In this document: positions 5,505 to 50,527 of the stretch, piece after piece
How positions within the stretch are numbered: the first letter of the stretch is position 1
Layout of the letters: each line of letters begins with the position of its first letter
NCBI GenBank assembly: GCA_021768625.1
Contig: JAETUM010000014.1
Coordinates: forward strand, 1 to 51,316
Length of the DNA stretch: 51,316 nucleotides
Origin: Candidatus Stoquefichus sp.
GTDB taxonomy: Bacteria > Bacillota_I > Bacilli_A > Erysipelotrichales > Coprobacillaceae
Direction of reading: 5' to 3'
Made by a program: the position numbers and the translations under genes
Notes under the pieces: model-generated
The model's database searches: none
What the model saw: only the letters and a program-made list of their open reading frames with translations
What the model was told of the DNA's origin: nothing

Positions 5505-5659
5505 TCATATCACCATTTGTAATTATAGAAATAAATGAAAGGAAATACAAGAATTTTTATTGTTGATTCCATGATTTTGAGAATTATATTTTGAATGACA
5601 TTCTTTATATTTTATGAGAGATATGAGATAATAGAGAAGGTTGAAAAGAGGTGCGAAAA

Positions 5660-7472: not shown

Positions 7473-7490
7473 ATTCTATATTTATTTAAA

Positions 7491-7546: not shown

Positions 7547-7562
7547 TTGGGAGGAATTATAT

Positions 7563-20094: not shown

Positions 20095-20108
20095 AAAGAG
20101 GTAAGAAA

Positions 20109-20471: not shown

Positions 20472-20489
20472 AAAATTAAACAATTTTAG

Positions 20490-20517
20490 GAAGAACTTGA
20501 AAGGTTCTTCTTTTTTT
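20490..20517 (+). terminator. Terminator of the metal-efflux operon
   Basis: GAAGAAC pairs with GTTCTTC, followed by seven T's. The remaining gap to 20676 shows no gene. Confidence 0.75.
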
Positions 20518-20781: not shown

Positions 20782-23700
20782 ATGAAAAATAATATAAAAT
20801 TGGTCTTCGACAAGTTGTGGAAAATAATTGTAGTGCTGGCTATGATTATAACAGGACTGACAATCATGGATAATGTAGCAGATGCCGTTACAGATATAGG
20901 AAGACCTAGTGTTCACTTTGTTATGGAGCACTTTTCAGGAGGTATTACACCTACTGACAGTGAAGGGAATCCACAATCTAATACATCATTGATTAGTCGA
21001 GGAATGGGTCATGGAGTTACTGTCAATCTGGTTATAGATCCAGATTTCACAATAGGAAGTGCTCATGGATTACACTATAATTTGCAATTACCTTATTTTT
21101 ACTATGTCTCAGGAAATTTGATTACAACATTTGATATTAATGATGTTCCTAGTGATCAAAAAGATGAATCAGGAAAACCATTAATGGGTGTTGGAGCCAT
21201 AGTTAGAGAAAGCAAAGGTGCAGATGTTGACGAAGGTGATGAATTCTATGGGGAAAGTACAATAGAAGGAAGTCAGATGGTGTTAGAGTCTGGAAATCCA
21301 TTGTATGTTCAAGTAGAACTATTTTTCTATGGTGATGTTCCTGAAAATGCAGGAGCTACTGTATCTTTAGGTGGTGGATATGAAAAGTATGAAGATGAGG
21401 ATCAAGTTCAGCATACAATTCAATTCCAAACAGCCCCTGGAGTAACAACAAAAGCAAAATATAATTTAATATGTTCTAACTTACAGTGGGATACTAAGAT
21501 TACACAAGTAACACCTGCTAATGTTTTATGGGATAAATATAATTATTTAGTTTATAAAGTAGAGGTTGAAAATAAATCTGAGGAAGATACAAGTTACTTT
21601 AGTGCTTATGGGTTTGGTGTTAAAGTACCAACAAGCGATGATGAAAATGCGTATGGATTACTTAGAAAAGAGGCTATGAAATGGATATATAATCCAGATG
21701 GAGATCCAATAGAAAATACAAGCTTCACAAATCAAGATCGAGAAAATGACTTTGTCGGTGTGCCAGGACAAGGTGGTATTCTAATATACGATGTTACAGA
21801 TATTGATGAAGAAGAGTTGGCAGAGTGGGATATAGAAAGTTTTTCAAATATGTCTAAGTATAAGTCATTGCCATATAACTATACAATCAACTCTATGGTA
21901 ACATATCGTGAAACAGATGAAGAAGTACGCAAAGGAGAAAAGAAAGTATACTATTTTGCTATTCCGATGGCAACAAATATCCCAAATTATGCTATTAATT
22001 CACTTTATACGAGAATGTATACAACAATTTACTTTGGTACAGGAAATGCTTATTCTTGGTCAAAGACAACAAATGTAACAGGAAAGTTTGATGCTCCTAA
22101 AGAAGATTTTACACATAATAAATATGTTGAAGAAAATGGAAAACAAGTTAAAAAGAAGATTGTTCCAATTGGTTCTAATGTTGATTATTATTTAGGAAAT
22201 TTCAAGAACACTGGAAATATTCCAGTATTTAATACTTATGTTGTTGATACGTTACCTGATAAATTTGATTTACAAAAAATTAGTATTGAATTGAATATTC
22301 ATGAGGAAGAAGACGAACCTCAATTAAAAGATTGGTTTTCTGATCCATGTTATGTTTATTTTGAATTTTTAAATTCTAAAACAGATAAAAAAGAGTACGT
22401 TTCTATGGGAACATTTGCACCTGATGCAAATGCATCAACAGATGATATTGCAGTATGGTCATATAATGCAAAAGATGTTGTAAAAAATTATTTACAAAGT
22501 CATAAAGATTTATCTTTTACAGGATGTTTTAAAATTGATTTTAAAGAACGTATTAATGTTAAAGAAGAACTTGATGGACGAATTGTTGTTAATGGAAATG
22601 TTAATAGTAGAGATGTTTTTGTCAATCAATTAGATACACATTTTGAGAAATGGCATTATGTTCCTCCTGTAGCAACAAGTGAAGATGGTTTTGAAGGTGG
22701 ATATACAAAAACACCTAAAAAGGTAAGTACAACTGAAGCTACAATTGAAACATCACCAGCTATACCGTTGATTGATGTAGATGCTTATCAAAAGAAAAAT
22801 GATGGTACATATGCATATAGTGATTTAGAAAAAGTGCCAGTGCATGGTCCAAATGTAGGTTATAGGTATAAGTTAGGAAATGGAAGTATTTCTGATATGA
22901 TACCTGGAATTTTCAAATCTGGAAGTTTTCTTTTAAGTACAAGTAGTACTAGTCCAAAAGGATTTATCACTGATAAAATTATCTTTTCTAAAGATTTGGT
23001 AGAAAAATCAGCTCAAATTGAAACCATTACTCTTTATTTTAGTGATGGAACAAATAAGGTGCTTTCAAATGTTGATACAAGTATCCTTACTATTGATGCA
23101 AATGGAAACTATGTTTTAGATAAAACAGCATGGGATGGTAAGACATTATCAAATTTTGAAGTGAAAGTTAGTAAGTTTGTTGCTGAAACACAATTGGGTA
23201 ATAATGTTTTTATTGATGTAGATGGTAGTACAAATATTGTTAAGCCAGTCAAGGTAAAAGGAAGTCTTGAAACTGTTTATAATGATGTGAATGCTGATAA
23301 GAAAGCAACTTCAGAAGCAACTCTTGAAACAAGTGCTGCTATACCATTGATTGATACAGATGCTTATCAAAAGAAAACTGATGGAACTTATACATATGGA
23401 GATTTGGTAAAAGTACCTGTACAGAGCTCTGACATTGGTTATAGATATAAATTAGGGAATAATAGTATTTCTGATATGATACCTGGTATTTTTAAGTCTG
23501 GAGATTTTCTTCTTAATTCAAGTGGAAGTTATTCACAAGGATATATTACTGATGAAATTATATTCTCTAAAGAATTGATTGACAATGTTGCGACAATTGA
23601 TTCAATAACCTTCCATTTTAGTGATGGTACAACAAAAACACTTTCAAGCATTACAACAAGTATGTTTACTGTAGATGAAGATGGACATTATGTGTTAGAT

Positions 23701-26700
23701 AAAAGTGCTTGGGATAGTAAAATATTATTAAATTTTGAGGTGGAATTTAGTAAGTTTAATTCACAAATAGCATTAAATGATGATGTTTTCATCAAAACAA
23801 ATGGTAATACAAATGTTGTTAAACCTGTTAGAGTTACAGGAAGTTTTGAAACTCAATATAATGATGCAAGTGTTGATAAGAAAGTAACATCAAATGCAAC
23901 TCTTGATACACAACCAGCTGTTCCAGTTATCAATGTTGATACATTTAGAAATGTAAATGGAACTTATACATATAATGATCCTACAGAAGCACCAATGGGT
24001 CTTCCTAATGCAGGTTTTAGATGGAGACTAGCAGATAATAGTATCTCTAAAATGATACCAGGACTTATGAAGTCTGGAAATTTATTGGTTTCAACTGGTG
24101 CTGATAGTGATGGAACAAAACGTTATGGATTTATAACTGATACATTAACTTTATCGAAGAAATTAGTAGAAATTTCTCAAATTCATTCAGTTACTCTTTA
24201 TATGAATGATGGTACTAGTTCTATTCTAACATTAGATGATTTTACAGTGGATGCAAATGGAAATTATGTTTTAAATAAAGATTCATGGAGTGGGACTTTA
24301 TCACATTTTGAAGTGCAATTTGATGAATTTGATGTACATACTACAATAACTAATGACGTATACATTCAGGTAGAAGGAAGTCCAAATATTGTTGAACAGT
24401 TAAGAGTAACTGGATCTTTTGAAACTCAATATGATGATACAACTGTTAATAGAAAATCAACAGAAACAGGAACGTTGAATGTTGGAACTATTTGGTTAGA
24501 GTTATCAGGATATAGTTTTAGTGAAGATGATAATACTAAATCTGGAACAAATACGGCTTCAAATCGTAATGGCGCACAATCAGTTGTTAATTCTTTAACT
24601 GTTGCAAATAAAAAAGAAAATACAGGATATGATTTTACTATTGTTAATAATTCTGTTGCTCCAGTAGGAGATGCAGAAGTAAAAATAGAGTTACCAAGTG
24701 TTGGAAAGAAACCAACAATTGGTACTGTTGTTAAGGGATTTAACACAAAAGAGATTAAGATATCTAATTATGTAGATATTACAAAAATTGAAGAAGTTAA
24801 ACTTTATGATTATGATCAAAGTGTAACTGATACACCTGCTAAGGTCATAAGTCTAGCTGATTTGAAAAAAGATGGAGATTCTTTAATTATTGATGAAGAT
24901 ATGTTGAAAGGGCTAGAACGCCTTAAAACTATAGTCATTGTTTGTAAAGATTATGCAGGACAAGAAGATTTATCTAACTTAAAAAAGATGAATATACGTA
25001 TTACAGGTGTTTCTGATTGGTTTGAAGATCTAGATGCAAAATTAACAATCACACCTTCACATATTTCTATGAAGAGTAGAGCGATTAGTTTGATAGATAG
25101 ATTACATGTAGATAAACCAAGATTAGATGTTCATGCAAATCTTTCATATTATAACAATACACCAGAAAAGTCTACAGCAACCAATGCAAATACTGATGGA
25201 AATGAAATGCATTTAGCAATTCCATATGATAGAGATTTCAAATATCGTGTCAGTGTTGAAAATAAGACAATATCAGTATTAGATGATGTTGATTTAATTA
25301 TTGATGTTCCAGTTAATAATAAAAATGCTGCTAATGGAGAAGCAAATACAGGATTCCATACAACAAAGGTTGTTATTAATGAAAATCTATTAAAACAATT
25401 TAAAGAATTGGATTATATTACATTCTATGATATAGATGTCCCTGGTGCAGGAACACGCTTTAACTATGATAAAGATACAAATAAATTGGTAACAGTTGAT
25501 GGTAAAGAGTTAACTATTGTTGATGGTAAAATAGAAATTAGTGAAAAAACATTAAACGAATGGGGAATTAATCACTTAGGAAAAGTTATTGTTTCTGGTC
25601 AAAAAGTCATATTAAAAGATGCTACAACAGATAATGCATGGATTGATTTTTATGGATTCTCAGATTCATTATTTGGAACAACAAATCGTATGACTGTTAA
25701 TGCTAATAACTATTTAGATGGAATCAGAGATTATCCAAATGAATTACCTCCTGTGAATGCTGTTGATCATGCAAGTGCATATGTAAGTAAGATGTATTTT
25801 GATACAACAATAGTTGCAGGATATGTTGAAAATCCTAATAATGCAAATCGTTTTGAAAAAGTTTCGACTTCAACAGAACATGTAAGAGCAAATTATTATA
25901 CATGTTCTAGTTCATTTGGTGATAACTCAGAGTTAGATGTTGGCTATAAAGCACTTGGATCATTTATGGTTGACTTTAGACAATATCTCAATGTGAATTA
26001 TGATTATCCTGTAGATGTTGGACAACCTACTTATGATAATTATATTTGGCAAGAACATAGAGATTGGCCTTGGGTATATACACAATCTTTAAATACTGCA
26101 GCAAATGTGAATTTAACAGTAAATTTACCTTCAAATTCATTTGATGCTTATTATTTGAAAGTGGATCCAAGAGCAAAGGATTACTTTAATTCTATTACAG
26201 TTATAAGAAAAGATGGAACAAAGTATGTTGTTAATAGAAGTGATTGGCAAGATAATTCTGTTGAAACAAATAGTCAAGGGAAATCATTCTTTAGAATAAA
26301 TCTATTAACTAATGAAGAACAAAAACGTTATGAAACAGTTGGTTCAGGAGTTAATAATGATATTTATTATAAAGAATTGAAAGATTATGTTGTTAGCAAT
26401 CCAATAACACAAATTATTATTAATTTAGATATAAATGAAGATGAGGCAGTCAATGAGACAACAGCTAAAAATCCAGATTATGGAACATGGTATGTTGCTA
26501 ATGATCAAAAGACTAAATATATGTTTGAAGTTACTGGTCGTTTCTATGAAGAAGGACAATCGGTTGCCACTGTATCTACAGATATGATAGTTGGTGGAGA
26601 TAGAGGAAACAATACAACAAGAACTGGTTATAAAGCAAAAGAAAGATCAATTAGTGGAAAAGATACTGGAGCAAATAAAACAGATTGGTCATATAAAAAC

Positions 26701-29700
26701 CAATATCGTCGTTATTGGCCTACAACTTATTCATGTGCTTGGGCAGATAGCTATTATGATGCTGCTGATTTGAATTCAACTGCAAAAGTATATGTTTATA
26801 GAGAAAATAACTATGTTATGAAGGGTGTTCATGACAATCCAACGGTTAATTATGACGATAATGTTAAATATGCAAATTACAATGAATTTGCTGTAAGTTT
26901 TTATCGAGGTATTCAATCTACAAATAACAGTGGTAATAATCATGATTATCTAGCTGGTAATGGAGGCTGGGCATACCAAGATGCATTTGATTGGTCAGGA
27001 AAACATGCTTATAGTGACTTGGTTGTCTTAAAAGATACATTACCTGCAATTAGACCAGATGCAACAACTGGATATTATGGTTTTCTAACTCAAAAAATAT
27101 TTGTATCAAGTCAACTTTATAAATATGTTGATAAGATTAAGTTGCAGAAAAAACAGGTTAATGAATCAGGAGCAGCAACAGCATTAGCTGATGCAGATAA
27201 ATATATCACATTAAGTAAGTCAGATTTGAAAGCAAGTACAACAAAATCAGGATATTATGAAATATTAATTAACTATGGAACAAATGATAATCCAGCAACA
27301 AATGAAATTGTGTTAGGAAAAGATCAATTCATAGAAAATTATGAAATAACTTTAAAAGATTTACCAGGTAATGGGGACTATGCAAGAGAACTTACAAATA
27401 ATAGTCAACGTGTTACTGTAGATGCACATGGTAATCAAAATAATGTTGATATTTTCGTTGGTGGAGAAGTTTATCTTGTTAGAGGTATTCATCCTGTTGA
27501 AGATGCTCTTAATAAGATTACGTCAACAACTTATAAGGAAGTCACAAGAGAACCTGATGCAAAAGTAACAACAAAACTTCAAGATTCATATGAAGATGGA
27601 TATATGCGAGGATATCGTTTACCATTCCAAGCAGGTTTTGATATTACTTCAATGAATAATCGTGATATTTATGATTATGATACAACAGGAGCAGGTAAAA
27701 ATTTAAATCCAACAAATGCACCTTATGAAGTTAAAATATGGAATAGAACAGATACAAATCAAGATGCTGGAAAATCTTCAACTATTAAAACAGCTACTGT
27801 TACAAATACTATGCATAGTAGTTATCGTTTAAAACATATTAATATACCAAAAGAATTTATAGATGGAGATTGGTTTAATGTTTCTCAATTAACATTAAAT
27901 TATAATGGACATAGTATTAATTTGAGTTTGGCTGATTTAAAGAAAAACGATGGTGGATATTTTACATTAGATAGTAGTAGTAATAATTATGTATTTGATG
28001 TAAATAAATATGTAAGAGAACATGTTAGTGAATTTGCGACATATGGAGTTGCAAATACAACAGATACTTATGTAAGAGAACAAGTGACAAGTTTTGTGAT
28101 TGTATTCCAATCTGCAAATATTGATTTGAAGAATGATGATACAGTATTAAAAGGTGGACAATATTTAAGTCCAGACAAAACAGATAAACCAGCATTTACA
28201 TATGATGGAATTTATGTAGATCGTAATACAACTGATATAGCAGTTGATCAATGGACAGAGGATTCAAGACCAACAGTTATTAATGATCGATTTGATTATT
28301 GGTCTGGAACTTCATTAACAAATACAGTTAATGTGGGATTTGTAGCATCTAACTTAAATGCTGAGGCTTATCAAGGTAATTTATCAGGTACTGATCCAGA
28401 TGATTATTATAGAATTCAAAATCTAGTGGGAACTATGATTGTTAATATGTCAAGGGGATCATTAGTTAATGGAGTCAATAGTTTTGCGTATGACCGTGAT
28501 AAGAAAGCAACTTCAACAGAACAACTTGCTGTTGATAGTGGTCATTTATTACCTGATGATTATATTGAATATCATTTGACTGTGGGAGCAAAAGAAGATA
28601 GTAAATTACCAATATATCATCCAGATGTTCGATTTACAGCTCCAAAAGGGCAAAGAATTGTTGGATGGAAAATAGAAACTCCATTTAATCAAACAACAAA
28701 AATATCTAATGAAGATATTACAGCGACTGTTAAAGATGGAACAACAGATTTACCTTTTGAAAAGGATAAAGTATATTCATTAGTAGGAATTGAAGATCAT
28801 TATATAGAAACAAATTATAAGGAATTGAATATTTCTGTAGGTGATTTAACTAAGTCAGACGAATTTAACTTAGTTCAACCAGGAGATAAGGTAAAGATTA
28901 CAGTTATCACACAGTTAACAAATGAAACACCTGCCTTTGAAGGTGTCAAGGTGGAACAAGCTAAGTTTGAGGCAGCAGCAAATCCTAAGCATACATATTC
29001 ACAATATATGATTCATCATGAAACAGGTGGTGCTGGATCAGGATATTGTGACTCAACAAATGCTTATCATAGTCACGATGGAATTTATTATTATCGTTAT
29101 GATAAAGATTTCTATAGAGTAAATGGTAACCCATATACAGGACAAACATATACTTCTGAAGTAAGAAGTGGTGTTCAGTTCTTTGATAATACTCAAAATT
29201 TAGGAATTGAATATTCGTATAACAGCAATCTTTATCATTTTGATAGACAAGGTATGACAATTAAGAGTTATGGAGCTAATAAAACAGCAGTTACTAATAA
29301 TACTCTTCATACATTAGATAGTGCAACATTTACGATGGCATTTTTATCAGAATCAAATGGAAGATTTTATAAAGGTTTTGATCTTACGGAAAAACCAACA
29401 TTCACATATCCAACAAATATGGTAGAAAATAGACCAATTAAGGTTGAGTATTGTTATTTTGATGATGATTCCTTTGTAGAAGAGGGTGTTTATGCTAATA
29501 CTGCAACTGAAACATGGATTGAAGAAGAAAATATAGTCTTTGCTGATGAATTATTAGAAGAAGATAAGGCAGCTGGAAAACGTCTTGCAAGAGATGCAGT
29601 CAAGATAAGATGGACATATTATGATATTCCAGCTAAGGGTACTGATGGAAATATTATTACATTTGCTTCAGCTACTAATCCGTTTGTATTAAATGGTGAA

Positions 29701-32700: not shown

Positions 32701-35700
32701 TTGTTATTCCAATATCAAAAGAACCATAACTATATATCAAGTCAATTAGATAACTTTAAATTCTTGATTGATTCAGATATGAGCGGTAATCCATATTGGG
32801 TAGGTAATGTATTTAAAGCTTACTGGGGTACATATTATCAGTATTATTTAAACCCATCTCCAGGAGATAATCGTAAGGATTCTGTTTATGCTGAATATCA
32901 ATATTATTCTAATACACCTCAATATCGTCTTTCTGGTGGAGTGATTCCAAATAGTAAGGTTACAAATAGTTTAGGTACTTATTCACTTTTGGATGCAACA
33001 GATGAAGGTGGAAATAAACGATATAGTGAAAATCAAGAGATGCAGCTAGAGGATTATAGTTCAATTCGTTGGAAGTTATTATTGAATGATAAAGATTTCA
33101 ATAGAAATGACAGTGATTCAACAACAGATGCAGAAATAACAACAATAGATACAGGTATTCATACATCAAATCGTATTCGTGTTAAACATCCAGGAATAGA
33201 AAACGTCAGCTATGTATCAAAGACTCCAGCAGTTAATGATACGGATTTAGGTGGACGTTCTCCAGAAGGATATTCTAAGAAGAAGTATGAATATTATCCA
33301 AATAAAGAAACATATATGCAATATGGGGACAACCTATATTACAATGTAAAAGTAAGTAACCATAGTACAAGTGATACAGATTATACTCATAAGGGAAATG
33401 TATTACATTCTAAAATTCATGTTACATTTGTATTACCATCAATTGTAAGTTATCGTAAGAATGATGATGATAGATTCTATGTTATTTATACTGATTCAAA
33501 TGGTCAAAAACAAAAGGTTACATTTAAAGAATTAGAAGAATCTGGATATACAGTTAATCTTGTTAAACAAGAAATTAATGATGATGGTACTGAAACTGTT
33601 GTCTTTGATATTATTACATCTGGAGAAAATACTAAAGAAAAGATAACTTATCAAGACTTTGTTGATGGATATAAGTTACCAGGATATTTTGGAACTGGAG
33701 ATAGTTTTGTATTTGGTATAAAAACAGTTATTGATCATATTGGAGCAAGTGATACACTTCTTATTGATGAAAAAGCATGGGATGATAATTATAGAGCAGA
33801 TACATATGTATCATTACATGATAATGATGGAACATACTTACAAGAAATGTATCCAGATGGTCAATTTGATAAAGTTGATGAGCAAGATATTTCTGGAGCT
33901 AACTATATAAGAAAAACAATTGATGATCTTGATAATGGTATAGATTTAGATCTTGATGATGAGAAAGATATATATGCAAGTGATGTTACTGCAAAAGTCA
34001 CTGTATTAAAACCAGAAGCAGTTGTACGTGTTGACACATCAGTGAGTAGGGTATTAATTACTAACCCAGATGCTGAAATTGTTGTTGCAGAAGATCCAAC
34101 TGTAAAAGGTGCAAGAAAAATGACAATTTATGTTGATGAAGCTATTAACAAAGAAGGTGCAGTGCCAGAATTTATCATTGATTATCGTATTCCATTCCAT
34201 GGAAAATCAGAAGGTAGCCGTGAAGAGGCAACTATTAATGATAATGATATTTATCCATATGTTTATGCAATTGGAACTGGTAAGTGGATGATACCAGAAA
34301 GTGCAGGAAGTGAAGAATATCGCAAAGAATTAGCTGATCACTTGAAAGTACATGTTTATGCACTTGTCAGTGAAAATCAGCCAGCAGTAGATGATGTATC
34401 TTATCAGATACCTGGTGAAGAAACAGGAAACTGGATTGAGTTAACTGATAAAGCAGGTGTCAGCATTGATGAAAATCATATTATTGATTTAAGTGATGAA
34501 CATGCAGATATTAGAAATAAGATTTATCAACTTAGATATGTTGTTACAGCTGATTCAGATAGAAAAAATACAGAAGAAACAAGGAAATATGTCGTTCCTA
34601 AAGGATTTAGATTAGATATAGATGCTGATCCAAACCAAGATGGAAATCAAGAAATGGATGATATTGATCCAAAGCATCATAATCTTGATAAACTTCCTGA
34701 TTCAGTGGTATCAGATATACTATTTGATACAAGTGGAAATATTAAAGATATTAATAAAGTAGGAAATGCTGCATTTGTTATAACAACTGCAACACATACT
34801 AAAGAAGAAAATCAACATGTTAACCACTTTGCAAAAGTATGGGCAAGATACGATGATACACAAATTGGAACTTTAAGTGAAAGTTCACGTGCAGGATATT
34901 ATATCAGTCGTGAAATCCCAACTTTACAAGTTGATTTATCAGTTAATTACTTTAAACGTCAAAGTAGAACAAATGAAGATGGAGTAAGAGAATATTATTA
35001 TTCATGGGTTCCAAACTTTGTTATTGATAGTTCAAGTTCAATGTTGAGGTATAGTGCAACATTGTCAAACTTAACACAAGAGCAAATCATAGGTGCAGAT
35101 TTAGATGGGGAGCCTGATAATGCTACAAATCCACAATTAGCAACAGTATTACCATATGTTCAAGATATTAGTAATATTAAAGATAGTTCTTCTCCAAATT
35201 TATATAATTATAAGTTCTATAAATACGTAGAGTATGCTGGAGATGATTCTAAAACAGAATCTATCAGCAAAGGATATGAATCTACAGATAGACTTATAGC
35301 AAGTGAGTCTACTTGGACATGGCATATAGAAGATGAAGAAGGCAATATCATTGAAAACTCTGGTGTTAAGAACGTTAACTTAAGAATGTATGATAAGGCA
35401 GTAGATTTAACGAATTTACAAAGACGTGTTATGACATGGGATTTCCAAGGAACATTACAACCAGGGCAAAAAATCGTTATTGATTATATGGTACCTATTT
35501 CTACAAAGGAAAATGGTGTTGTTAGTTCATCCTTGCTAGAATGTAAATCTTATGGATTTAAAGAAGGTACATTTAATCCATATATTCCAATTTCAGATAA
35601 TGCAAATGAAACGTATGCACTTGAGCTTGATACACGTGATATCAATGATAATGAATTGATGAAGAGTGAAATTACATTAGTTAAATCATTAGGTGGATTG

Positions 35701-38700
35701 TCTTTCGCTTCAAATAAATCATTTACACGTATTAAAACATCACATTCTGAATATGGAAGTGGTCTAACCGCTTCAGGAAACGGAAATACAAGACCTTCTG
35801 TTGTACCAGAAGGATCAGATTATTCATTTACAACGACAATATTGAATCCAGACTCTATGGAAAATGATGAAGGGTATAAACATCCAATTATATATGATGT
35901 TTTACCATTTGTAGGAGATAGAACTCTTATAACAGATACACCACGTAATACAAAATGGAGAGGATATATCTATTTAGATTCCATTGAAGCTGAAAAACAA
36001 TATGGAACAAGTTCGGGTGTAAAGACTGAAAAATTAGTGGATGGTAAAACAGTTCAAGTATGGGTTGGACCATTTAGAAAAGAAAATGGAAAGATAACTG
36101 CCCTTGAAATTAGTGATTTACCAGACTTTGAAAAGACAAAGGATAAAGAATTCTATAAGTCAATTTATGGTGAAACTGCTAGTGCTATAGCAGAAAAACA
36201 AAAATACTTTGTGCGTTTAAGTGAATTATTGGCTCTTAAGTCTAGTAATCCAGAACAATTTGAAGAATTACAAAGATCAGTTCAAGCGGTTTATGCAGAA
36301 CCAAGTTCAGACTTTGTATTAAAAGGAGCTACAAAGTTTACAGTAACATATAGTATGAAAGCACCATTAAATCTTCCAATGTATCCAGAATACGTTACAG
36401 AAGATGATGCAGACTTAAAGAAAAAAGTAGCAGATCATTCTGGATGGAATACATTTGCTGCACAATCAGAAGATGAGCCAACAACAGAATCACCACAAGC
36501 AGGAGTTTATTTAGATGCTCCAGCTGATAAGGGATATATCGGACATTATGTATGGCTAGATGAAAGCTTTAATGCTCAATTTACTGATGAAGGAGAATAC
36601 TTCAAACGAGATGCAGATGGAAGATGGTTATTCAGTAAGGCAACAAAAGATTTAGATTATGATGGAAAACTAGATGATCCAGGTATTAATGGAGTTAAAG
36701 TTGAATTACTATCAGAAAAAGGATATCCAGTCAATCGTTTAGGAGAACCAGTTGTTGAGGTTGATGGAAAGTATCTTATTATTGATGAAAATACTGGTAA
36801 GATTGCGTTGAGTACAAGTGGACAACCAACATATACAATTTATGGACCTGAATACTATATAACTGAAAAAGATGCTTATGGAAATAATGGATATTTCATC
36901 ATATCTAATATTACTCCAGGAAAGTATAAGTTAAGATATACATTCCTAGAAGGAAAATATGATGAACATACATTAACGACAAGAACATTAGGAACAACAG
37001 GAACAGTTACAGGTGTAGATGTCTATCGCCAAGGTGATCATTTACCAGATTTAGGAAATAAAGGTGTTGGAGATTCACCATCAGATTATAAAGAAGTTAA
37101 TGGTTTGGTTGTACAAACAAAAGAAGCAATTCAAATTGATGCGATAGGAACAGATCCATCAACATATAAAGCATATGATGAAAAGATGACAAGTTATGAT
37201 GTAGGAATTGCGCATTCGTATATTTATGGTGGATATGCTTGGTTTGACGAAAGTCCAGATCCAAATAATCCTGAGCAAACAATAAGTGATGGAATTATGG
37301 ATGATGGAGAAAGAAGATTAGAAAATGTTGACATTCAATTCTATGAAGTTGATGAAGATGGAACAAGAAAAGAGACTTATGATGGAAACGGAGAGATAGC
37401 AAAAGTTACAACAGATGAGAATGGATATTTTGAAATTGCATTGTATCCATATAAGAGTTATGTTGCAATAGCTGATACAAGCCGATTAAAAGATAAAGTC
37501 TATAAACCAACTCCATTTACAATAACTACAAATCCATTGGAAAGAGCTGATGATAATGATCAGGAAATGGATAAGAATAAGAAGAATGTATCATTTATCT
37601 TTAAAACAGGACCAGTTATTGATGAGGCAACAGGAAAACCAATCATGACAGATAAAAAGAGTCATGGAAAATTCATTAAGTTAGGATTTGGATTTGTTGA
37701 AGCTGGAAAAGGATTCATAGGAAAGAATATCTTCAATGATAAAAACTATGATGGAATTAGAAATCAATATACAGATGCCCAAGGTAATGTTGTTAGTGAA
37801 CCAGGAATTGATGGAATCAATTTAATACTAGAACAATACTATTATGATACAGTAGATAACAAATGGAAATATGTAGAAGATGGTGATAGAACACTTATTA
37901 GTTCAGGAGGAGCATACATTTTCCAAAATGTTAGAACAACTTATACAAGTGAAGAGGATGAAATATATTTAGCTGGATATAGAGTGAAGTTAGATACATC
38001 TACAATTCCAGAAGGATATACCCCTACAAAATATTATATGGGTAATGGAGTCTTAGATAGTGATTTACCAGTTGATAGTAATGATAGATATCGTTATCTC
38101 AGTGATATATTGATAATTGCAGATGATGTAACAGATAATCCAATTGGAGATAACATATTGGAAGTTAATGGTAGAATATATGACACATCAGATGGAATCA
38201 TGATTTTGGATAATGATGCAGGATTTACGACAATGGATAAGTCAGTGATACGAGGAAAAGTCTGGGATGACAAGAACTATGATGGACAACAAAATCAATA
38301 TCAAAATGCAGATGGCGATGATGTCGATGAAGAAGGAATAAGTGGAATAGAATTACAGTTAGTTCCTTACTATTATGATAATAGTTGGAAGGCATTAGGT
38401 TCAGATGTTAATGATGCATATAGACAAAAAGTGACAACAGATAAGAATGGAAATTATCAATTCACAGGTGTTCCATCGTATATTACGATAGACAATAAAG
38501 ACTATATCGTATCATATAAGATTAAAGTAGTTAGTGACATATCACAAATAGACTATGCAGTTTCTAGATATCATGTAGGAAATAAATCTACAGACAGTGA
38601 TCTCATCAAAGAAACAATGTTATTGAATGAAAGCAGTGATTATATTATTGTTGCTAAAAAGGTTGCAGATACAAATGACCAAGCAACAATCAATAAAGAT

Positions 38701-41700
38701 TATGGAAAAGAAACATTAGGTAACCATACAATGTTTATTCATAACAAATTAGGATACTTTGATAAGAATAAAGTTGTGAATGTAAAAGGCTATGATGCAG
38801 GATTAAAGGCATTTGAAAAGGATAGCATAGCAGGAAGAGTCTGGGAAGACAAAGATTACAACGGAATTATGGATGAAACAGAATCTGGAATTCCAGCAGT
38901 CGAGTTAAAACTAGATAGATATTATCTAGATACAAAGACAAGCAAATGGATAAAAGATACAGATTTCAATAAAGAAAATGTCACAACAGATGCAAATGGA
39001 GACTATAAGTTTGAGGACTTAGATACATATGCATATATTGAAGGGCAATATTATTTAGCAGGATACAAGGTATCAGTTGTAACAGAACCAGATAGAGCAG
39101 TTTATGGAATCACACTTTATCGTCAGGAGACAGAGGGTCGAAACAGTGATTTAAGAAAAGATTTATCACTAAATGAAAGCAATGAATATATTATTATTGC
39201 AGATGAAACGAAAACTCCAAAAAATAATCCATATATTATTGAATATGATAATAAAGAATATGATCTAATAGAAGCAAAAGCAATGAATGAATATGATGCA
39301 GGATATATCAAATATCCAGTATCAAAGATTACAGGAAGTGTTTTTGAAGATTTAGATTATGATGGATTATTGAATGGTGAAGATGGATTCTTAGATAGTT
39401 TAAAAGAAGCTATTGTAGACAATAAGATTATTATTACAGCAACAGCATATTATTATGATGACGGATGGAAGCTATACCAACCAGAAGGAGCTGACAATCA
39501 GACATATACAGCAGAAGTCACATCAGCTGATAGTGATGGAAAATATGAAATAGAGGTTCCAACACAATTCAATGTAGATGGAACAAGTAGACTTGCTGGA
39601 TATAAGTTAAATGTCAATATTGTACCAGATGGATATCATATGACGAAATATCTCAAGAACAAAGGAATAGGAGATAGTAGTCTCATTAAAAATGATGAAG
39701 TATATGAAATAACAAAAACAGGACATAAAACTGGATATCTAGGAAAGCTTGAAGAAGAGTATAAAGGTATTATTGTTGCAGCAAATCCAGTGGATAAAGA
39801 AACATTGAAAGATAATGTTAATATGCAAGAAGGATATGATGTTGCAAGAGGAAGAACACTCAAGGATTATAATGCTGGTTATACAAAGATACAAACTTCA
39901 GCTATAGAAGGAATCTCATTTGAAGATATTAACTATGATGGAATTTATGATTCTAACATAGATGAAATTCTTTCTAATGCTCAAGTAGGAATCAAGCGTT
40001 ACTACTATGATAATGGAGAATGGATATTGGATAATGAAGCAGCAATTGATCCAAATACAGGTGAAGAATTATCAGAATATTATCAAACATTGACAACAGA
40101 TGAAAAAGGATATTATAAATTTGATAATCTTCCTACATATAAGCAAATGAGTGAAGATGATAAAGATATTCGCTTGTATGGATATACAGTATGGTATCTA
40201 GGAGGAATTGATAGCTTAGCTGTCACAAAATATCAAATTAATAATGGTATCAATGATAGTGCTTTACAGGTTGACAGTAATCAAATTGTCAAGAAAGATG
40301 GAAGTATACCAGAAATGAAGAATGGATATACAATTGTGGCAGAAAAGGTAGAAGATATTGAAGATGAATCATTATCATATGTTGTAGAAGGATATGATAT
40401 AGCAGATGGCCGAACAAGACAAAATTACAATCTAGGATTCACAAACTATCAGGAAGGTATCATTGAAGGAAAAGCTTTCATTGAAGAAGATTACAATGGT
40501 ATCTTTGATGAACATGACAAAGGATTGGCAGATATTGAAGTTGGAATCAAGCGATATATCTATAATCCAAATACAAAAGAATGGGCATTAGCACAAGATG
40601 AAGAGCAAGAATATTTTGCAACAACAAAGACCGACAGTGAAGGATATTATAAATTCCAAGACTTAGGAACATACACAAGTGTAAATGGAGTCAAATATCT
40701 ATATGGATATAAAGTATGGCTAATCAAAGGACTTGAGGAAACACCAGTTACAAAATATCAAACAAATCATGGTATTAATGACAATGCATTAATGGTAGAA
40801 ACAAATCAAATTGTGAAGAAAGATGGTAATATACCAGAAATAAAGGATGGTTATATCATAGTTGCGGATAAACCAGAAGATTTATCAAATGTAGATCCAT
40901 TCTATACAATAGACGGATATGACATTATAGCAGCAAAACGAAGAGATAACTATAATATCGGATATGTACCATATCAAATGGGAAGCATTGAAGGTATGGC
41001 ATTTGATGATTTAGATTATGATGGAATCTTCACAGCAGAAGATAGAGTATTAAAAGGCGTAGAAATAGGATTGAAGTGCTATTATTATGATAGTGAAGAT
41101 AAGAAGTGGCATGAAGCAGGAGCTATGCCAATTGAAGGCGAAAGCAGTCAAGAACAATATATCGCAATTACAGAGACAGATGATAAAGGATATTATATCT
41201 TTGATGAATTGCCAAGCTTTATACAAATAAGTGAGACAGAAAGATACCTTTATGGATATGAATTGTGGATGTTAAGTGAAGATGGAGATCGATTGATTAC
41301 AAAATATCAAATGAATAATGGAGAGAGGGACAGTGCAACAATAGCAGCCACTCACCAGGTTATTAAGAAAGATAAGACATTACCAGAGATGAAGGAAGGA
41401 TATATCATCATAGGAGATAACATCAAAGGACAAACAGATGTTAACACAAGATATGTTATCGAAGGATATGATATAGTTAAGGGAGCACATCGCATAGAAT
41501 ATAATATGGGATTTGTACCTAAAGAAAAATATCATATACAAGGAAATATCTGGGAAGATTTAGATTATGATGGAATTGACAATGATGATAAGAAGATGAA
41601 AGGCATCGAAGTAACATTGGAAAGATACTATTTCTTGAATGGAGAATGGCAAGAGATGGAAGAGAAGACAACAATGGAGACAGATGCACAAGGAAATTAC

Positions 41701-42693
41701 ATTTTCAATGATCTAGAAATCTATGGAACAATAGATGGACAGGATGTTGTTTATGGCTATAAGGTTAAGATTGAAGAGATACCAAATGGATATGATGTCA
41801 CAAAATATCAAGTGAACAATCATGAAGATGATAGTGACATGAATGTGAAGACAGGATATCTAGAAGAAAAGGGAGCACTTATCGTATTAGCAGATAAGGC
41901 AGATGAAACAACAAGCTCAGTATACAATATTGGTGGATATAACATATCACATGGACATTCACAAGATGACTTAGATGGTGGATTGGTACCATATGGACAA
42001 GGAATGTTGCAAGGAGTCGTATTTGAAGATAACAATAAAAATGGAATCTTTGATGGCGATGAAAATGTAGTTGAGGGAGCAATTGTATATCTAGATTATC
42101 TGGTAGAAGATAGTGGAGAACAATCAATAAGTGTAGATAAGAATATGGTCTATGAAAATGGAACATATCAAAGCTTCAAGAATATGAAGTCAACAACAGA
42201 TGAACAAGGAATATTTACATTTAAAAATTTACCAATAGTTGATGAAAACAACAATGTTTATCAATATCGTTTACGTATGTATAAACCAGATGGAACAGAA
42301 TTTACAACAGTCTATCCATTCAAAGGACAGGCACAAGGTAAAAAGAACATATATGGAGGAAGAGTTACAAAAGCAGAAGATGTTCGTGAAAACGAAGGAA
42401 TTACAAAGGATATCTTATTGGCTCAAAAGAAAGGTGAAGATAATTACTATCATCTTGAATGGGAAGTAGAAGGACAAGAATATACACGTATCTATTTAGG
42501 ATATTATAGGGAAAAGAATCTTGATATCGAGATAGAGGATGTCTTAAATGAATCATATCCAAAATATCCGTCACAGCCAAAGACAAGTGATTCTTCACAA
42601 CCAGAGATATTATGCGCAATGATGTTAGTTTCAGGACTATATATGACATATCAAGTGCTTGTATACAGACGTAGAAGAAGGGAAGCAGAGTAA
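20782..42693 (+). CDS. Giant cell-wall-anchored surface protein (about 7,300 residues) with SdrD-B-like repeats
   Basis: An uninterrupted 21.9-kb frame encoding 7303 residues (about 820 kDa). The ATG at 20782 is used, with GGGGAGG upstream. Order: signal peptide or membrane segment (about 8-35); N-terminal region (to 650) with DUF11-like beta features; three tandem repeats of about 193 residues (about 651-1225); a very long Asn/Tyr/Asp-rich region (about 1225-5250) with scattered DUF11-like segments; eleven SdrD-B-like modules (about 5251-7240) carrying D-x-D-Y-D-G loops; a sortase-like signal QPKTS (7265-7269), a membrane helix and the tail RRRRREAE. It is probably a surface adhesin or stalk. 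SdrD-B modules bind calcium and stiffen such stalks. No enzymatic motif was noticed. The 3' part of the gene uses more ATA, AGA and ATC codons than the 5' part. Confidence 0.9.
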   Translation: MKNNIKLVFDKLWKIIVVLAMIITGLTIMDNVADAVTDIGRPSVHFVMEHFSGGITPTDSEGNPQSNTSLISRGMGHGVTVNLVIDPDFTIGSAHGLHYNLQLPYFYYVSGNLITTFDINDVPSDQKDESGKPLMGVGAIVRESKGADVDEGDEFYGESTIEGSQMVLESGNPLYVQVELFFYGDVPENAGATVSLGGGYEKYEDEDQVQHTIQFQTAPGVTTKAKYNLICSNLQWDTKITQVTPANVLWDKYNYLVYKVEVENKSEEDTSYFSAYGFGVKVPTSDDENAYGLLRKEAMKWIYNPDGDPIENTSFTNQDRENDFVGVPGQGGILIYDVTDIDEEELAEWDIESFSNMSKYKSLPYNYTINSMVTYRETDEEVRKGEKKVYYFAIPMATNIPNYAINSLYTRMYTTIYFGTGNAYSWSKTTNVTGKFDAPKEDFTHNKYVEENGKQVKKKIVPIGSNVDYYLGNFKNTGNIPVFNTYVVDTLPDKFDLQKISIELNIHEEEDEPQLKDWFSDPCYVYFEFLNSKTDKKEYVSMGTFAPDANASTDDIAVWSYNAKDVVKNYLQSHKDLSFTGCFKIDFKERINVKEELDGRIVVNGNVNSRDVFVNQLDTHFEKWHYVPPVATSEDGFEGGYTKTPKKVSTTEATIETSPAIPLIDVDAYQKKNDGTYAYSDLEKVPVHGPNVGYRYKLGNGSISDMIPGIFKSGSFLLSTSSTSPKGFITDKIIFSKDLVEKSAQIETITLYFSDGTNKVLSNVDTSILTIDANGNYVLDKTAWDGKTLSNFEVKVSKFVAETQLGNNVFIDVDGSTNIVKPVKVKGSLETVYNDVNADKKATSEATLETSAAIPLIDTDAYQKKTDGTYTYGDLVKVPVQSSDIGYRYKLGNNSISDMIPGIFKSGDFLLNSSGSYSQGYITDEIIFSKELIDNVATIDSITFHFSDGTTKTLSSITTSMFTVDEDGHYVLDKSAWDSKILLNFEVEFSKFNSQIALNDDVFIKTNGNTNVVKPVRVTGSFETQYNDASVDKKVTSNATLDTQPAVPVINVDTFRNVNGTYTYNDPTEAPMGLPNAGFRWRLADNSISKMIPGLMKSGNLLVSTGADSDGTKRYGFITDTLTLSKKLVEISQIHSVTLYMNDGTSSILTLDDFTVDANGNYVLNKDSWSGTLSHFEVQFDEFDVHTTITNDVYIQVEGSPNIVEQLRVTGSFETQYDDTTVNRKSTETGTLNVGTIWLELSGYSFSEDDNTKSGTNTASNRNGAQSVVNSLTVANKKENTGYDFTIVNNSVAPVGDAEVKIELPSVGKKPTIGTVVKGFNTKEIKISNYVDITKIEEVKLYDYDQSVTDTPAKVISLADLKKDGDSLIIDEDMLKGLERLKTIVIVCKDYAGQEDLSNLKKMNIRITGVSDWFEDLDAKLTITPSHISMKSRAISLIDRLHVDKPRLDVHANLSYYNNTPEKSTATNANTDGNEMHLAIPYDRDFKYRVSVENKTISVLDDVDLIIDVPVNNKNAANGEANTGFHTTKVVINENLLKQFKELDYITFYDIDVPGAGTRFNYDKDTNKLVTVDGKELTIVDGKIEISEKTLNEWGINHLGKVIVSGQKVILKDATTDNAWIDFYGFSDSLFGTTNRMTVNANNYLDGIRDYPNELPPVNAVDHASAYVSKMYFDTTIVAGYVENPNNANRFEKVSTSTEHVRANYYTCSSSFGDNSELDVGYKALGSFMVDFRQYLNVNYDYPVDVGQPTYDNYIWQEHRDWPWVYTQSLNTAANVNLTVNLPSNSFDAYYLKVDPRAKDYFNSITVIRKDGTKYVVNRSDWQDNSVETNSQGKSFFRINLLTNEEQKRYETVGSGVNNDIYYKELKDYVVSNPITQIIINLDINEDEAVNETTAKNPDYGTWYVANDQKTKYMFEVTGRFYEEGQSVATVSTDMIVGGDRGNNTTRTGYKAKERSISGKDTGANKTDWSYKNQYRRYWPTTYSCAWADSYYDAADLNSTAKVYVYRENNYVMKGVHDNPTVNYDDNVKYANYNEFAVSFYRGIQSTNNSGNNHDYLAGNGGWAYQDAFDWSGKHAYSDLVVLKDTLPAIRPDATTGYYGFLTQKIFVSSQLYKYVDKIKLQKKQVNESGAATALADADKYITLSKSDLKASTTKSGYYEILINYGTNDNPATNEIVLGKDQFIENYEITLKDLPGNGDYARELTNNSQRVTVDAHGNQNNVDIFVGGEVYLVRGIHPVEDALNKITSTTYKEVTREPDAKVTTKLQDSYEDGYMRGYRLPFQAGFDITSMNNRDIYDYDTTGAGKNLNPTNAPYEVKIWNRTDTNQDAGKSSTIKTATVTNTMHSSYRLKHINIPKEFIDGDWFNVSQLTLNYNGHSINLSLADLKKNDGGYFTLDSSSNNYVFDVNKYVREHVSEFATYGVANTTDTYVREQVTSFVIVFQSANIDLKNDDTVLKGGQYLSPDKTDKPAFTYDGIYVDRNTTDIAVDQWTEDSRPTVINDRFDYWSGTSLTNTVNVGFVASNLNAEAYQGNLSGTDPDDYYRIQNLVGTMIVNMSRGSLVNGVNSFAYDRDKKATSTEQLAVDSGHLLPDDYIEYHLTVGAKEDSKLPIYHPDVRFTAPKGQRIVGWKIETPFNQTTKISNEDITATVKDGTTDLPFEKDKVYSLVGIEDHYIETNYKELNISVGDLTKSDEFNLVQPGDKVKITVITQLTNETPAFEGVKVEQAKFEAAANPKHTYSQYMIHHETGGAGSGYCDSTNAYHSHDGIYYYRYDKDFYRVNGNPYTGQTYTSEVRSGVQFFDNTQNLGIEYSYNSNLYHFDRQGMTIKSYGANKTAVTNNTLHTLDSATFTMAFLSESNGRFYKGFDLTEKPTFTYPTNMVENRPIKVEYCYFDDDSFVEEGVYANTATETWIEEENIVFADELLEEDKAAGKRLARDAVKIRWTYYDIPAKGTDGNIITFASATNPFVLNGEGRYRDIRTDAQKQTTPYADRYTMKLDTNYVFTHKHSEDLDNTIGDETNTAYFEESLQFTGSGSTTKIIARERPILTLHTQIFDSEENASEAYNASKAQKTGYRPNDIVWFKTTVLNHALTAAQADTGIQGALLDPIIYDKIPEYITTSGLDNNQITIVWYDKDGNPKDVPNYEIKKRVVNDVADYGGDMITTKADTDGSGKGDGHAFADLYSNNNTETTSINYNLYSIEFEKGTRLEIGEKIEVHYSATIREENLPLAYSTRGDKTFVDYYPKMGEYTQRGSGYESSYGYTASSYPYIGRFDNNPSEYYGSIEKFSNDNVMMDMNYLQHDVGLSGTRNPNIDKYEYLKDSYVYMPGTSNDGTGINDNYGGSNGYLKDFDMCVTSYQQQTRYVPTLTVNKLDQLPQSESYVNPANNRARDYYSRLLSLRNRSYDWQDVESHEDAVIWTQSRTHLQTAWLATSSQMYSQTGNYLSGTEYIPTAWSGKADPHYNYTRGDYSGDDNWRHKLYRDDNVTALEYDQNYMSRIGAYNYGDWDLTSGIEFIYVLPRGVEPRLNDDGSLDLSSLKGYILNGGDSKNPSYSQIDSSNIHVSVLQKAGEDNGYYSPNVMQDPIINQYLNRTTHNYANEEKKYYTSEDGTPWVLKVTVNQPLKKWFNRKTDTGYMMLIDIPTHVYKTNPSEYWYDEVMARPLDVNDQDSLYYQIYDVTSYWGNNLPRSSDFISTQYAGMDYMWNSYYYAYGVGNDGRTYFLNGSPNTPYINGMNISNREVSSQNNVDDAGGKEKFASGKRNTYASTGTRAHMRKPVMRTWTTVGNNNIEGRNLSEYYVNGVGDNSKLHIHVENKYYMNDSAPDHDWYYQNHYQKVYHNYSVDGGSMGTLYYPVVTDILPAGIVPKDEDGHLFTEDNDANKLKTLNWSISDRDGVSVDEKDLYDAIVEYVELESEEDEGKVEGRYKVTFVPKSKDVRDEKKAKITSGSTRIFSFDFFTKKSPSKKTKTGSNDDLLFQYQKNHNYISSQLDNFKFLIDSDMSGNPYWVGNVFKAYWGTYYQYYLNPSPGDNRKDSVYAEYQYYSNTPQYRLSGGVIPNSKVTNSLGTYSLLDATDEGGNKRYSENQEMQLEDYSSIRWKLLLNDKDFNRNDSDSTTDAEITTIDTGIHTSNRIRVKHPGIENVSYVSKTPAVNDTDLGGRSPEGYSKKKYEYYPNKETYMQYGDNLYYNVKVSNHSTSDTDYTHKGNVLHSKIHVTFVLPSIVSYRKNDDDRFYVIYTDSNGQKQKVTFKELEESGYTVNLVKQEINDDGTETVVFDIITSGENTKEKITYQDFVDGYKLPGYFGTGDSFVFGIKTVIDHIGASDTLLIDEKAWDDNYRADTYVSLHDNDGTYLQEMYPDGQFDKVDEQDISGANYIRKTIDDLDNGIDLDLDDEKDIYASDVTAKVTVLKPEAVVRVDTSVSRVLITNPDAEIVVAEDPTVKGARKMTIYVDEAINKEGAVPEFIIDYRIPFHGKSEGSREEATINDNDIYPYVYAIGTGKWMIPESAGSEEYRKELADHLKVHVYALVSENQPAVDDVSYQIPGEETGNWIELTDKAGVSIDENHIIDLSDEHADIRNKIYQLRYVVTADSDRKNTEETRKYVVPKGFRLDIDADPNQDGNQEMDDIDPKHHNLDKLPDSVVSDILFDTSGNIKDINKVGNAAFVITTATHTKEENQHVNHFAKVWARYDDTQIGTLSESSRAGYYISREIPTLQVDLSVNYFKRQSRTNEDGVREYYYSWVPNFVIDSSSSMLRYSATLSNLTQEQIIGADLDGEPDNATNPQLATVLPYVQDISNIKDSSSPNLYNYKFYKYVEYAGDDSKTESISKGYESTDRLIASESTWTWHIEDEEGNIIENSGVKNVNLRMYDKAVDLTNLQRRVMTWDFQGTLQPGQKIVIDYMVPISTKENGVVSSSLLECKSYGFKEGTFNPYIPISDNANETYALELDTRDINDNELMKSEITLVKSLGGLSFASNKSFTRIKTSHSEYGSGLTASGNGNTRPSVVPEGSDYSFTTTILNPDSMENDEGYKHPIIYDVLPFVGDRTLITDTPRNTKWRGYIYLDSIEAEKQYGTSSGVKTEKLVDGKTVQVWVGPFRKENGKITALEISDLPDFEKTKDKEFYKSIYGETASAIAEKQKYFVRLSELLALKSSNPEQFEELQRSVQAVYAEPSSDFVLKGATKFTVTYSMKAPLNLPMYPEYVTEDDADLKKKVADHSGWNTFAAQSEDEPTTESPQAGVYLDAPADKGYIGHYVWLDESFNAQFTDEGEYFKRDADGRWLFSKATKDLDYDGKLDDPGINGVKVELLSEKGYPVNRLGEPVVEVDGKYLIIDENTGKIALSTSGQPTYTIYGPEYYITEKDAYGNNGYFIISNITPGKYKLRYTFLEGKYDEHTLTTRTLGTTGTVTGVDVYRQGDHLPDLGNKGVGDSPSDYKEVNGLVVQTKEAIQIDAIGTDPSTYKAYDEKMTSYDVGIAHSYIYGGYAWFDESPDPNNPEQTISDGIMDDGERRLENVDIQFYEVDEDGTRKETYDGNGEIAKVTTDENGYFEIALYPYKSYVAIADTSRLKDKVYKPTPFTITTNPLERADDNDQEMDKNKKNVSFIFKTGPVIDEATGKPIMTDKKSHGKFIKLGFGFVEAGKGFIGKNIFNDKNYDGIRNQYTDAQGNVVSEPGIDGINLILEQYYYDTVDNKWKYVEDGDRTLISSGGAYIFQNVRTTYTSEEDEIYLAGYRVKLDTSTIPEGYTPTKYYMGNGVLDSDLPVDSNDRYRYLSDILIIADDVTDNPIGDNILEVNGRIYDTSDGIMILDNDAGFTTMDKSVIRGKVWDDKNYDGQQNQYQNADGDDVDEEGISGIELQLVPYYYDNSWKALGSDVNDAYRQKVTTDKNGNYQFTGVPSYITIDNKDYIVSYKIKVVSDISQIDYAVSRYHVGNKSTDSDLIKETMLLNESSDYIIVAKKVADTNDQATINKDYGKETLGNHTMFIHNKLGYFDKNKVVNVKGYDAGLKAFEKDSIAGRVWEDKDYNGIMDETESGIPAVELKLDRYYLDTKTSKWIKDTDFNKENVTTDANGDYKFEDLDTYAYIEGQYYLAGYKVSVVTEPDRAVYGITLYRQETEGRNSDLRKDLSLNESNEYIIIADETKTPKNNPYIIEYDNKEYDLIEAKAMNEYDAGYIKYPVSKITGSVFEDLDYDGLLNGEDGFLDSLKEAIVDNKIIITATAYYYDDGWKLYQPEGADNQTYTAEVTSADSDGKYEIEVPTQFNVDGTSRLAGYKLNVNIVPDGYHMTKYLKNKGIGDSSLIKNDEVYEITKTGHKTGYLGKLEEEYKGIIVAANPVDKETLKDNVNMQEGYDVARGRTLKDYNAGYTKIQTSAIEGISFEDINYDGIYDSNIDEILSNAQVGIKRYYYDNGEWILDNEAAIDPNTGEELSEYYQTLTTDEKGYYKFDNLPTYKQMSEDDKDIRLYGYTVWYLGGIDSLAVTKYQINNGINDSALQVDSNQIVKKDGSIPEMKNGYTIVAEKVEDIEDESLSYVVEGYDIADGRTRQNYNLGFTNYQEGIIEGKAFIEEDYNGIFDEHDKGLADIEVGIKRYIYNPNTKEWALAQDEEQEYFATTKTDSEGYYKFQDLGTYTSVNGVKYLYGYKVWLIKGLEETPVTKYQTNHGINDNALMVETNQIVKKDGNIPEIKDGYIIVADKPEDLSNVDPFYTIDGYDIIAAKRRDNYNIGYVPYQMGSIEGMAFDDLDYDGIFTAEDRVLKGVEIGLKCYYYDSEDKKWHEAGAMPIEGESSQEQYIAITETDDKGYYIFDELPSFIQISETERYLYGYELWMLSEDGDRLITKYQMNNGERDSATIAATHQVIKKDKTLPEMKEGYIIIGDNIKGQTDVNTRYVIEGYDIVKGAHRIEYNMGFVPKEKYHIQGNIWEDLDYDGIDNDDKKMKGIEVTLERYYFLNGEWQEMEEKTTMETDAQGNYIFNDLEIYGTIDGQDVVYGYKVKIEEIPNGYDVTKYQVNNHEDDSDMNVKTGYLEEKGALIVLADKADETTSSVYNIGGYNISHGHSQDDLDGGLVPYGQGMLQGVVFEDNNKNGIFDGDENVVEGAIVYLDYLVEDSGEQSISVDKNMVYENGTYQSFKNMKSTTDEQGIFTFKNLPIVDENNNVYQYRLRMYKPDGTEFTTVYPFKGQAQGKKNIYGGRVTKAEDVRENEGITKDILLAQKKGEDNYYHLEWEVEGQEYTRIYLGYYREKNLDIEIEDVLNESYPKYPSQPKTSDSSQPEILCAMMLVSGLYMTYQVLVYRRRRREAE
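22732..24456 (+). repeat. Three tandem about-577-bp repeats in the giant gene
   Basis: Copies begin at about 22732, 23308 and 23887. Each encodes a unit with EATLETSAAIPLID, GYRYKLGNxSISDMIPGIFK, FITDxIIFSK, and a closing VKPVKVKGSLET. The first two copies are very similar; the third is diverged (GFRWRLADNSISKMIPG). The unit likely forms one beta-sandwich pair in the stalk. Confidence 0.85.
36532..42520 (+). repeat. Eleven SdrD-B-like modules in the C-terminal stalk
   Basis: Modules begin at about 36532, 37228, 37704, 38239, 38821, 39331, 39901, 40456, 40981, 41530 and 42001, 470 to 700 bp apart. A typical unit runs: EGxxFEDLDYDGIFD, GIKRYYYD, TTDExGYYKF, YGYKVW, VTKYQxNNGINDSAL, GYIIVADK, EGYDIAxGRxRxNYNxGF. 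The first strands and TTDExGYY motif match SdrD-B/CnaB folds. The VTKYQ...NDSAL...IIVADK block, seen in about eight modules (3-10), is not part of the SdrD-B pattern I know. Confidence 0.8.
42574..42690 (+). other. Sortase-like cell-wall sorting signal (QPKTS)
   Basis: QPKTSDSSQ, then a hydrophobic stretch (ILCAMMLVSGLYMTYQVLVY) and RRRRREAE. The architecture is that of an LPXTG signal, but the pentapeptide has Gln at position 1 and Ser at position 5. This is nearer the NPxT(N/S/G) motifs of class B sortases. Confidence 0.7.
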
Positions 42694-42713
42694 AAGGGGG
42701 GATAACCCCTTTT
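42692..42713 (+). terminator. Hairpin overlapping the giant gene's stop codon
   Basis: AAAAGGGG-GGATAA-CCCCTTTT, a perfect 8-bp stem whose left arm starts within the TAA stop (42691-42693), followed by TCTTAT. It may be a weak terminator, an RNA-stabilising 3' structure, or a translational block on the next gene. Confidence 0.55.
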
Positions 42714-47974: not shown

Positions 47975-47987
47975 GAGGATGAAGAAA

Positions 47988-49136: not shown

Positions 49137-49137
49137 T

Positions 49138-50515: not shown

Positions 50516-50527
50516 AGGAGTTCATAT

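Follow-up and report, generated by a model that had tools for sequence, protein, structure and literature searches.

A 7,303-residue, predicted wall-anchored surface protein with a length-conserved core and an SBP-fold partner gene in gut Bacillota

The question that this locus raises is what an exported bacterial protein longer than 7,000 residues does at the cell surface, and what it takes to bring it there. Our main reading, to which we assign a probability of about 60%, is that the giant gene encodes a sortase-anchored fibre served by a dedicated partner in the membrane that probably works as an assembly chaperone, and that the fibre likely serves to attach the cell to host mucus or to other cells, or to keep it at a distance from them. 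The window, that is, the whole stretch of 51,316 nucleotides analysed, is contig 119 of the 2.92-Mb, 138-contig draft genome of Candidatus Stoquefichus sp., and the gene occupies positions 20782-42693 of its forward strand as a single uninterrupted 21.9-kb reading frame of 7,303 codons. The frame is open already from 20761; the ATG start is at 20782, and a GGGGAGG-type ribosome site (GGAGG) can be read ~9 nt 5' of it. The encoded protein has 7,303 aa, ~826 kDa, a pI of 4.65 and 12 Cys. The preliminary description had reported a single intact gene for about 7,300 residues, which is borne out, and had placed it among the largest bacterial reading frames, which is overstated: more than 41,000 'huge proteins' (>5,000 aa) have been catalogued across life (PMC11573180), and one relative of the present protein reaches 11,643 aa. 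It mentions neither the conserved partner gene nor the optional sortase gene, the fixed core length or the transfer across classes, which are set out below.

On the 5' side, a terminator-like hairpin (20488-20512, forward strand; one found versus 0.0 expected) lies 3' of an ArsR-type gene and sets it apart from the giant gene. This ArsR-type gene accompanies a heavy-metal P-type ATPase 5' of the giant gene (the region 18223-20471), and such ATPases also lie 0.6 kb 3' of the giant gene, on the opposite strand, in genome G317 (G317:C23:36989-39382) and ~7 kb 3' of it in G1009 (G1009:C3:172049-174000); their presence near three giants reflects either coincidence or a common insertion neighbourhood.

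A search for homologues and their length variation, which the preliminary description had proposed, yielded at least 15 relatives from Erysipelotrichales and Clostridia in order, genome and wider searches; core length is near fixed among the well-aligned ones and repeat numbers vary. Together with the window, 16 giant genes are thus known from 13 genomes (15 relatives in 12 others), with lengths of 5,162-11,643 aa, the collinear relatives spanning 6,818-7,916 aa. Collinear giants are found in Beduini massiliensis (6,925 and 6,927 aa, on one 829-kb contig), Faecalibacillus faecis (6,818 aa) and G011, where the giant comes in two pieces of 4,473 and 2,852 aa, each at the end of a contig; others are from bacterium 1XD42-54 (7,311 aa), a Eubacterium MAG (7,916 aa), Hominisplanchenecus murintestinalis (7,415 and 7,725 aa) and an Oscillospiraceae MAG (6,355 aa or more). 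The order search also gave a distant 5,162-aa giant in G206, and the wider search added G1009 (7,929 aa) and G1014 (9,429 and 10,103 aa). A giant of at least 6,991 aa was found in G855, and the longest, of 11,643 aa, lies in G1258 (G1258:C57:37706-72637, reverse strand) with the partner discussed below directly behind it. The family is sparse, being present in 5 of 316 genomes of the order to which the window belongs and in 5 of 392 and 2 of 394 genomes of two sampled Clostridia orders. The two giants each of Beduini (G002:C6) and Hominisplanchenecus (G319) share 68% identity, which points to lineage-specific duplications. A plasmid search with the most conserved giant segment gave no match, and the literature searched for giant proteins in these genera held nothing relevant.

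These relatives also bear on whether the giant gene could be an assembly artefact or a decaying pseudogene, a reading that we consider barely conceivable here and that is already refuted for the giant family. It could draw only on the draft state (138 contigs) of the source genome, yet the open frame is kept in independent assemblies, two copies lie within one 829-kb contig and one within a 2.36-Mb contig, and the giant frame is free of a DNA tandem array. Since TRF reported no tandem repeat array within the frame, repeat collapse, which had been named among what might refute the gene, is unlikely, and collinearity of the relatives along the whole length excludes a chance reading frame.

Self-comparison by BLAST and profiles divides the protein, from N to C terminus, into an N-cap, about three tandem ~193-aa repeats, a core of ~3,590 residues, nine SdrD_B-like repeats and a sorting tail; self-BLAST of the unsegmented protein returned nothing, and the repeats were found with 300-residue segments. 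By inspection, residues 1-36 (20782-20889) form a Lys-rich signal peptide with a predicted cut between ADA and VTD (IIVVLAMIITGLTIMDNVADA, then VTD), and signal peptides are present likewise in the relatives whose N terminus is readable. For the second G1014 giant the signal-peptide part lies in a separate frame (G1014:C2:137902-138861), which suggests a frame break or assembly error. The N-cap (residues 37-559; 20890-22458) contains a weak DUF11/TIGR01451 match at residues 454-495, below cut-off. Three tandem ~193-aa repeats were delineated by self-BLAST at residues 646-1222 (22717-24447), with 1-3 copies in relatives, and a degenerate extension of the same repeat at residues ~1240-1650 (24499-25731) is seen by profile comparison only. 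The core (residues 1650-5239; 25729-36498) has almost no self-similarity: profile self-comparison of residues ~1650-5250 gave a single weak internal match (3036-3090 versus 4127-4194, E 5e-4). It is followed by SdrD_B-like repeats of ~175 aa (36526-42321), degenerate from residue ~5249, complete from residue 5636 and extending up to 7180; SdrD_B (PF17210) is matched in Pfam by five stretches of this C-terminal part (103.6 bits, E 9e-30). A variant cell-wall sorting signal (residues 7266-7303; 42577-42690) ends the protein.

Residues 1-4200 gave no Pfam match above cut-off, and two 1,051-residue core segments gave no Pfam or PDB sequence match above cut-off; a match of one core segment to AfaD (E 0.006) was far under its cut-off and was discarded. 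The earlier estimate that some 4,000 residues in the middle resemble no known repeat thus came close, given a core of ~3,590 residues with one weak internal match and, in the stretches tested, none in Pfam or PDB sequences. In the eight close members that are complete, counting that of the window, the core measures 3,590-3,822 residues (CV 0.02), the first repeat zone varies with a CV of 0.37 (1-3 good copies), and the SdrD_B-like copy number is 7-11, but 15 in G320. Core identity to the nearest relatives is 45-51% over ~3,600 residues. The flanking repeats change in number and the core does not, which is unlike the usual repeat-built spacer.

AlphaFold models of two ~1,050-residue core segments are all-beta with mean pLDDT of 51.5 and 49.6, and Foldseek placed Ig-like domains of PrgB, C-domains of antigen I/II and the pilins SpaA and SpaD at or near the top of the matches. 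Because pLDDT is low, such fold matches are hints only, and they hint at a core of chained Ig-like domains; matches to integrin alpha were set aside as generic beta-sandwich likeness, not homology. The proposal of a very long fibre is accordingly plausible as far as the all-beta models and the Ig-like matches to adhesins and pilins go, and held back by the low confidence of the models. In the mechanism that we propose, the giant chain would leave the cell via Sec and then fold outside, domain by domain, into an exported, sortase-anchored fibre of chained beta-sandwich-type domains; the SdrD_B-like repeats would form a stalk near the wall, the core and N-cap would project outward as the working part, and the flanking repeat arrays would vary in copy number like spacers. 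Judged by the size of the protein, such fibres would measure some 0.2-0.3 micrometre.

Export and anchoring signals at the two ends, as had been described, are present, the C terminus running from PKTSD (a TS, not TG, variant) through a transmembrane stretch to RRRRREAE. At the same place relatives carry NVDTGD, NIDTGD, IKTGD, VRTGD, QPKTGD (G320), VKTGD or IPKTGD, and the G011 tail, VRTSD, shares the TSD variant of the window giant; nearly all relatives with readable ends combine a signal peptide with a TGD/TSD-type or similar tail. In five loci of relatives a sortase gene comes directly after the giant gene or after the partner (G318, G1009, G1014 twice, and G206, where the gene scores 21 bits, below the Pfam cut-off, and keeps the LxTC motif), and two sortases are encoded in the genome of the window, both on other contigs. 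Sortase B of C. difficile accepts (S/P)PXTG (PMC5118464). The tails of the relatives, the adjoining sortases in five loci and the two host sortases lend the proposed wall anchoring support at the sequence level, and we regard the predicted sortase anchoring of the giant to the wall as well supported: a class-B-like sortase, encoded elsewhere in the host genome and next door in some relatives, would cut after Thr (between PKT and SD) and link the giant to the wall. One of the two host sortases has as neighbours two smaller surface proteins of 1,367 and 528 aa that carry INTGD/IDTGD tails (G000:C120:436-6220 and 10123-10869), a locus that looks like a conjugative element. A toxin-delivery role of the giant was rejected, since the protein lacks a toxin domain and ends in a wall-sorting tail.

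The second component of the locus starts 35 bases 3' of the giant gene. This partner gene (42729-44102, forward strand) encodes a 457-aa SBP_bac_5-fold protein (68 bits versus a Pfam cut-off of 32.4) with an N-terminal membrane anchor at residues 7-25 and no lipobox, and in the PDB its profile hits chains of OppA/AppA/DppE and PrgZ (E down to 5e-19). It lies directly 3' of the giant in 11 of the 15 loci whose 3' end can be read, across several orders: the window, both Beduini loci, F. faecis, G318, one of the two Hominisplanchenecus loci, G320, G1009, G1258 and both G1014 loci. Its absence from G317, G319b, G206 and G011 indicates that it is not indispensable. In 4 of the 11 partner loci a sortase gene follows, giving the order giant, SBP, sortase (G318, G1009 and G1014 twice). 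Within the family of the window, strong partner matches are confined to positions next to giants (3 of 43 genomes), the profile having been built from those three; the partners in G1009, G1258 and G1014 (twice) were not yet known when the profile was made and score 403, 352, 119 and 124 bits, compared with at most 82.6 bits for ordinary SBP_bac_5 family members. An SBP upstream of the G855 giant (56 bits, with lipobox) was left out of the partner count, since ordinary members reach 82 bits. A membrane anchor takes the place of the lipobox in six of the first seven partner members and in most members overall; the Beduini partner G002b has a possible lipobox. The SBP-fold partner of a giant is previously unreported in the literature searched.

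In the gap behind the giant stop codon, before the partner gene begins, a terminator-like hairpin is predicted (42692-42713, forward strand), and hairpins between giant stop and partner start occur in most loci (z -3.7 to -6.4). The gap between the two genes in these loci is too short for a promoter, and in G319a and G1014a it is only 1-5 bp. Judged from this arrangement, the partner is likely expressed by read-through from the giant gene, and its position behind a terminator-like hairpin in most loci implies that less partner than fibre would be made. The idea of the hairpin as a special attenuator is weakened by similar hairpins 3' of giants that lack a partner; since hairpins also occur where no partner exists, they may be plain terminators.

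For OppA-type proteins, chaperone-like activity has been reported (PMC7442780, PMC9967938). By analogy, the partner, fixed in the membrane with its N-terminal segment, would keep hold of the giant chain as it emerges, is exported and folds, and we infer that a dedicated chaperone or assembly role is most likely and is to be preferred over that of a sensor. According to the latter reading, which we think unlikely, the partner would resemble PrgZ on pheromone plasmids, binding an extracellular peptide and controlling, or feeding on, the giant system. The profile matches to OppA/AppA/DppE and PrgZ fit such a role, as does the lack of transporter genes beside the partner in the window, PrgZ-type proteins borrowing the Opp permease of the host; however, most partners have a membrane anchor instead of a lipobox, and no regulator gene is conserved beside the partner in the loci read. 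It is more doubtful still, indeed improbable, that the partner is an ordinary oligopeptide-binding protein which became a neighbour by chance. SBPs of this family are common, with 2-18 candidates per genome in a first-look search, but set against a few thousand genes such a number renders a neighbour unlikely at any one locus, and here adjacency recurs downstream of the giant in 11 of 15 loci from several orders, with the strong matches found only beside giants.

For the giant itself, an adhesin or contact role is plausible, and the main rival, which fits the same facts, is that it acts by bulk as a shield, crowding the surface and masking shorter adhesins. This is how Ebh, SraP and SasG act in Staphylococcus aureus, where Ebh truncations still act, and with 0.83 MDa the present protein is within the size range of such truncations (PMC6548404); the acidic pI and the lack of a ligand-binding domain recognised in the giant by Pfam are likewise in keeping with a shield. 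A pure spacer should, however, tolerate changes in length, and the core retains both its length (CV 0.02) and 45-51% identity over ~3,600 residues, which suggests a position-specific function. We rate the shield as the rather less probable of the two roles.

Giant surface fibres of the sortase type are a known kind of protein; it is the fixed core and the partner that are unusual. Ebh of S. aureus (~1.1 MDa) is likewise a giant exported Gram-positive surface protein, for which size-dependent surface effects are plausible, but Ebh is repeat-dominated, whereas half of the present protein is a repeat-poor, length-fixed core, combined with an SdrD_B-like stalk, a sortase-type tail and an SBP-fold partner. 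No Pfam match to an Ebh-type array of short helical repeats was found in the giant, and the two core-segment models are all-beta. MSCRAMMs of the SdrD/ClfA type share the SdrD_B-like B-repeats before a sortase-type tail; they have ~1,000-1,500 aa and N2-N3 ligand domains, and offer no counterpart to the giant core. Residues 1-4200 gave no Pfam or NCBIfam domain of an N2-N3 ligand-binding region, and the sequence of the giant contains no Ser-Asp dipeptide repeat stalk. The partner shares the SBP_bac_5 domain with OppA/AppA and PrgZ, but the typical SBP of Gram-positive bacteria is a lipoprotein that acts together with a permease, whereas the partner has a membrane anchor, mostly lacks a lipobox, follows a giant surface protein and has no ABC permease or ATPase genes next to it within the window. 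Giant1-5 of Apilactobacillus kunkeei (3,000-8,000 aa) are gut-associated giant extracellular proteins with signal peptides and exchange between distant genera (PMC12863079). They have beta-solenoid heads (Giant1-4), long repeat arrays and a DUF5776 tail, features not found in the window giant, and the part of their description consulted mentions no SBP partner, which the window giant has.

As for the history of the gene, the core tree puts the window giant in one group with those of G317, a Lachnospirales genome, and of the MAG G318 (100/100) and away from those of Beduini, a member of its own family, and a single clade for the six Erysipelotrichales-side giants is rejected (AU p 4.9e-7). The rpoB tree, in which G320 is disregarded (wrong rpoB frame), separates the two classes and places the window next to G011 (91% identical), despite which the G011 giant is only 28% identical to that of the window; G206 and G011 are long branches of unsure placement. 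On these sequence data the giant gene has moved between classes, its nearest relatives being Clostridia and not its own family. The GC content of the giants follows that of each host, so that the transfers are not recent. It is tempting to go further and to propose, tentatively though as a real possibility, a surface system that has spread horizontally among gut Bacillota and in which a giant fibre with a length-fixed core of ~3,600 residues is combined with a membrane-tethered SBP-fold protein turned dedicated export and folding chaperone for one giant client and, optionally, a sortase of its own.

Elsewhere in the window, a VanG-type vancomycin-resistance-like cluster (5651-12676, forward strand) comprises a VanR family regulator (410 bits), a sensor kinase, D,D-carboxypeptidase-like genes, a D-Ala-D-Ser ligase VanG (529 bits, over cut-off) and a VanT split into a membrane gene and a racemase gene (523 bits, over cut-off). 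The genes at 45441-51154, apparently an envelope-stress-type cluster, encode a CbxX/CfqX-like AAA ATPase, a TelA-type protein (412 bits) and, by eye, TPM-domain-like and YbjQ-like proteins.

Repeat arrays are the usual explanation of giant surface proteins in bacteria; here, 3,600 repeat-poor residues hold a constant length across Bacillota classes, which implies that something selects for the whole layout. The spread across classes among gut commensals suggests that the giant confers a selectable surface trait. Finally, the SBP-fold partner provides a simple genetic handle on how bacteria export, and then fold outside the cell, one polypeptide longer than 7,000 residues.
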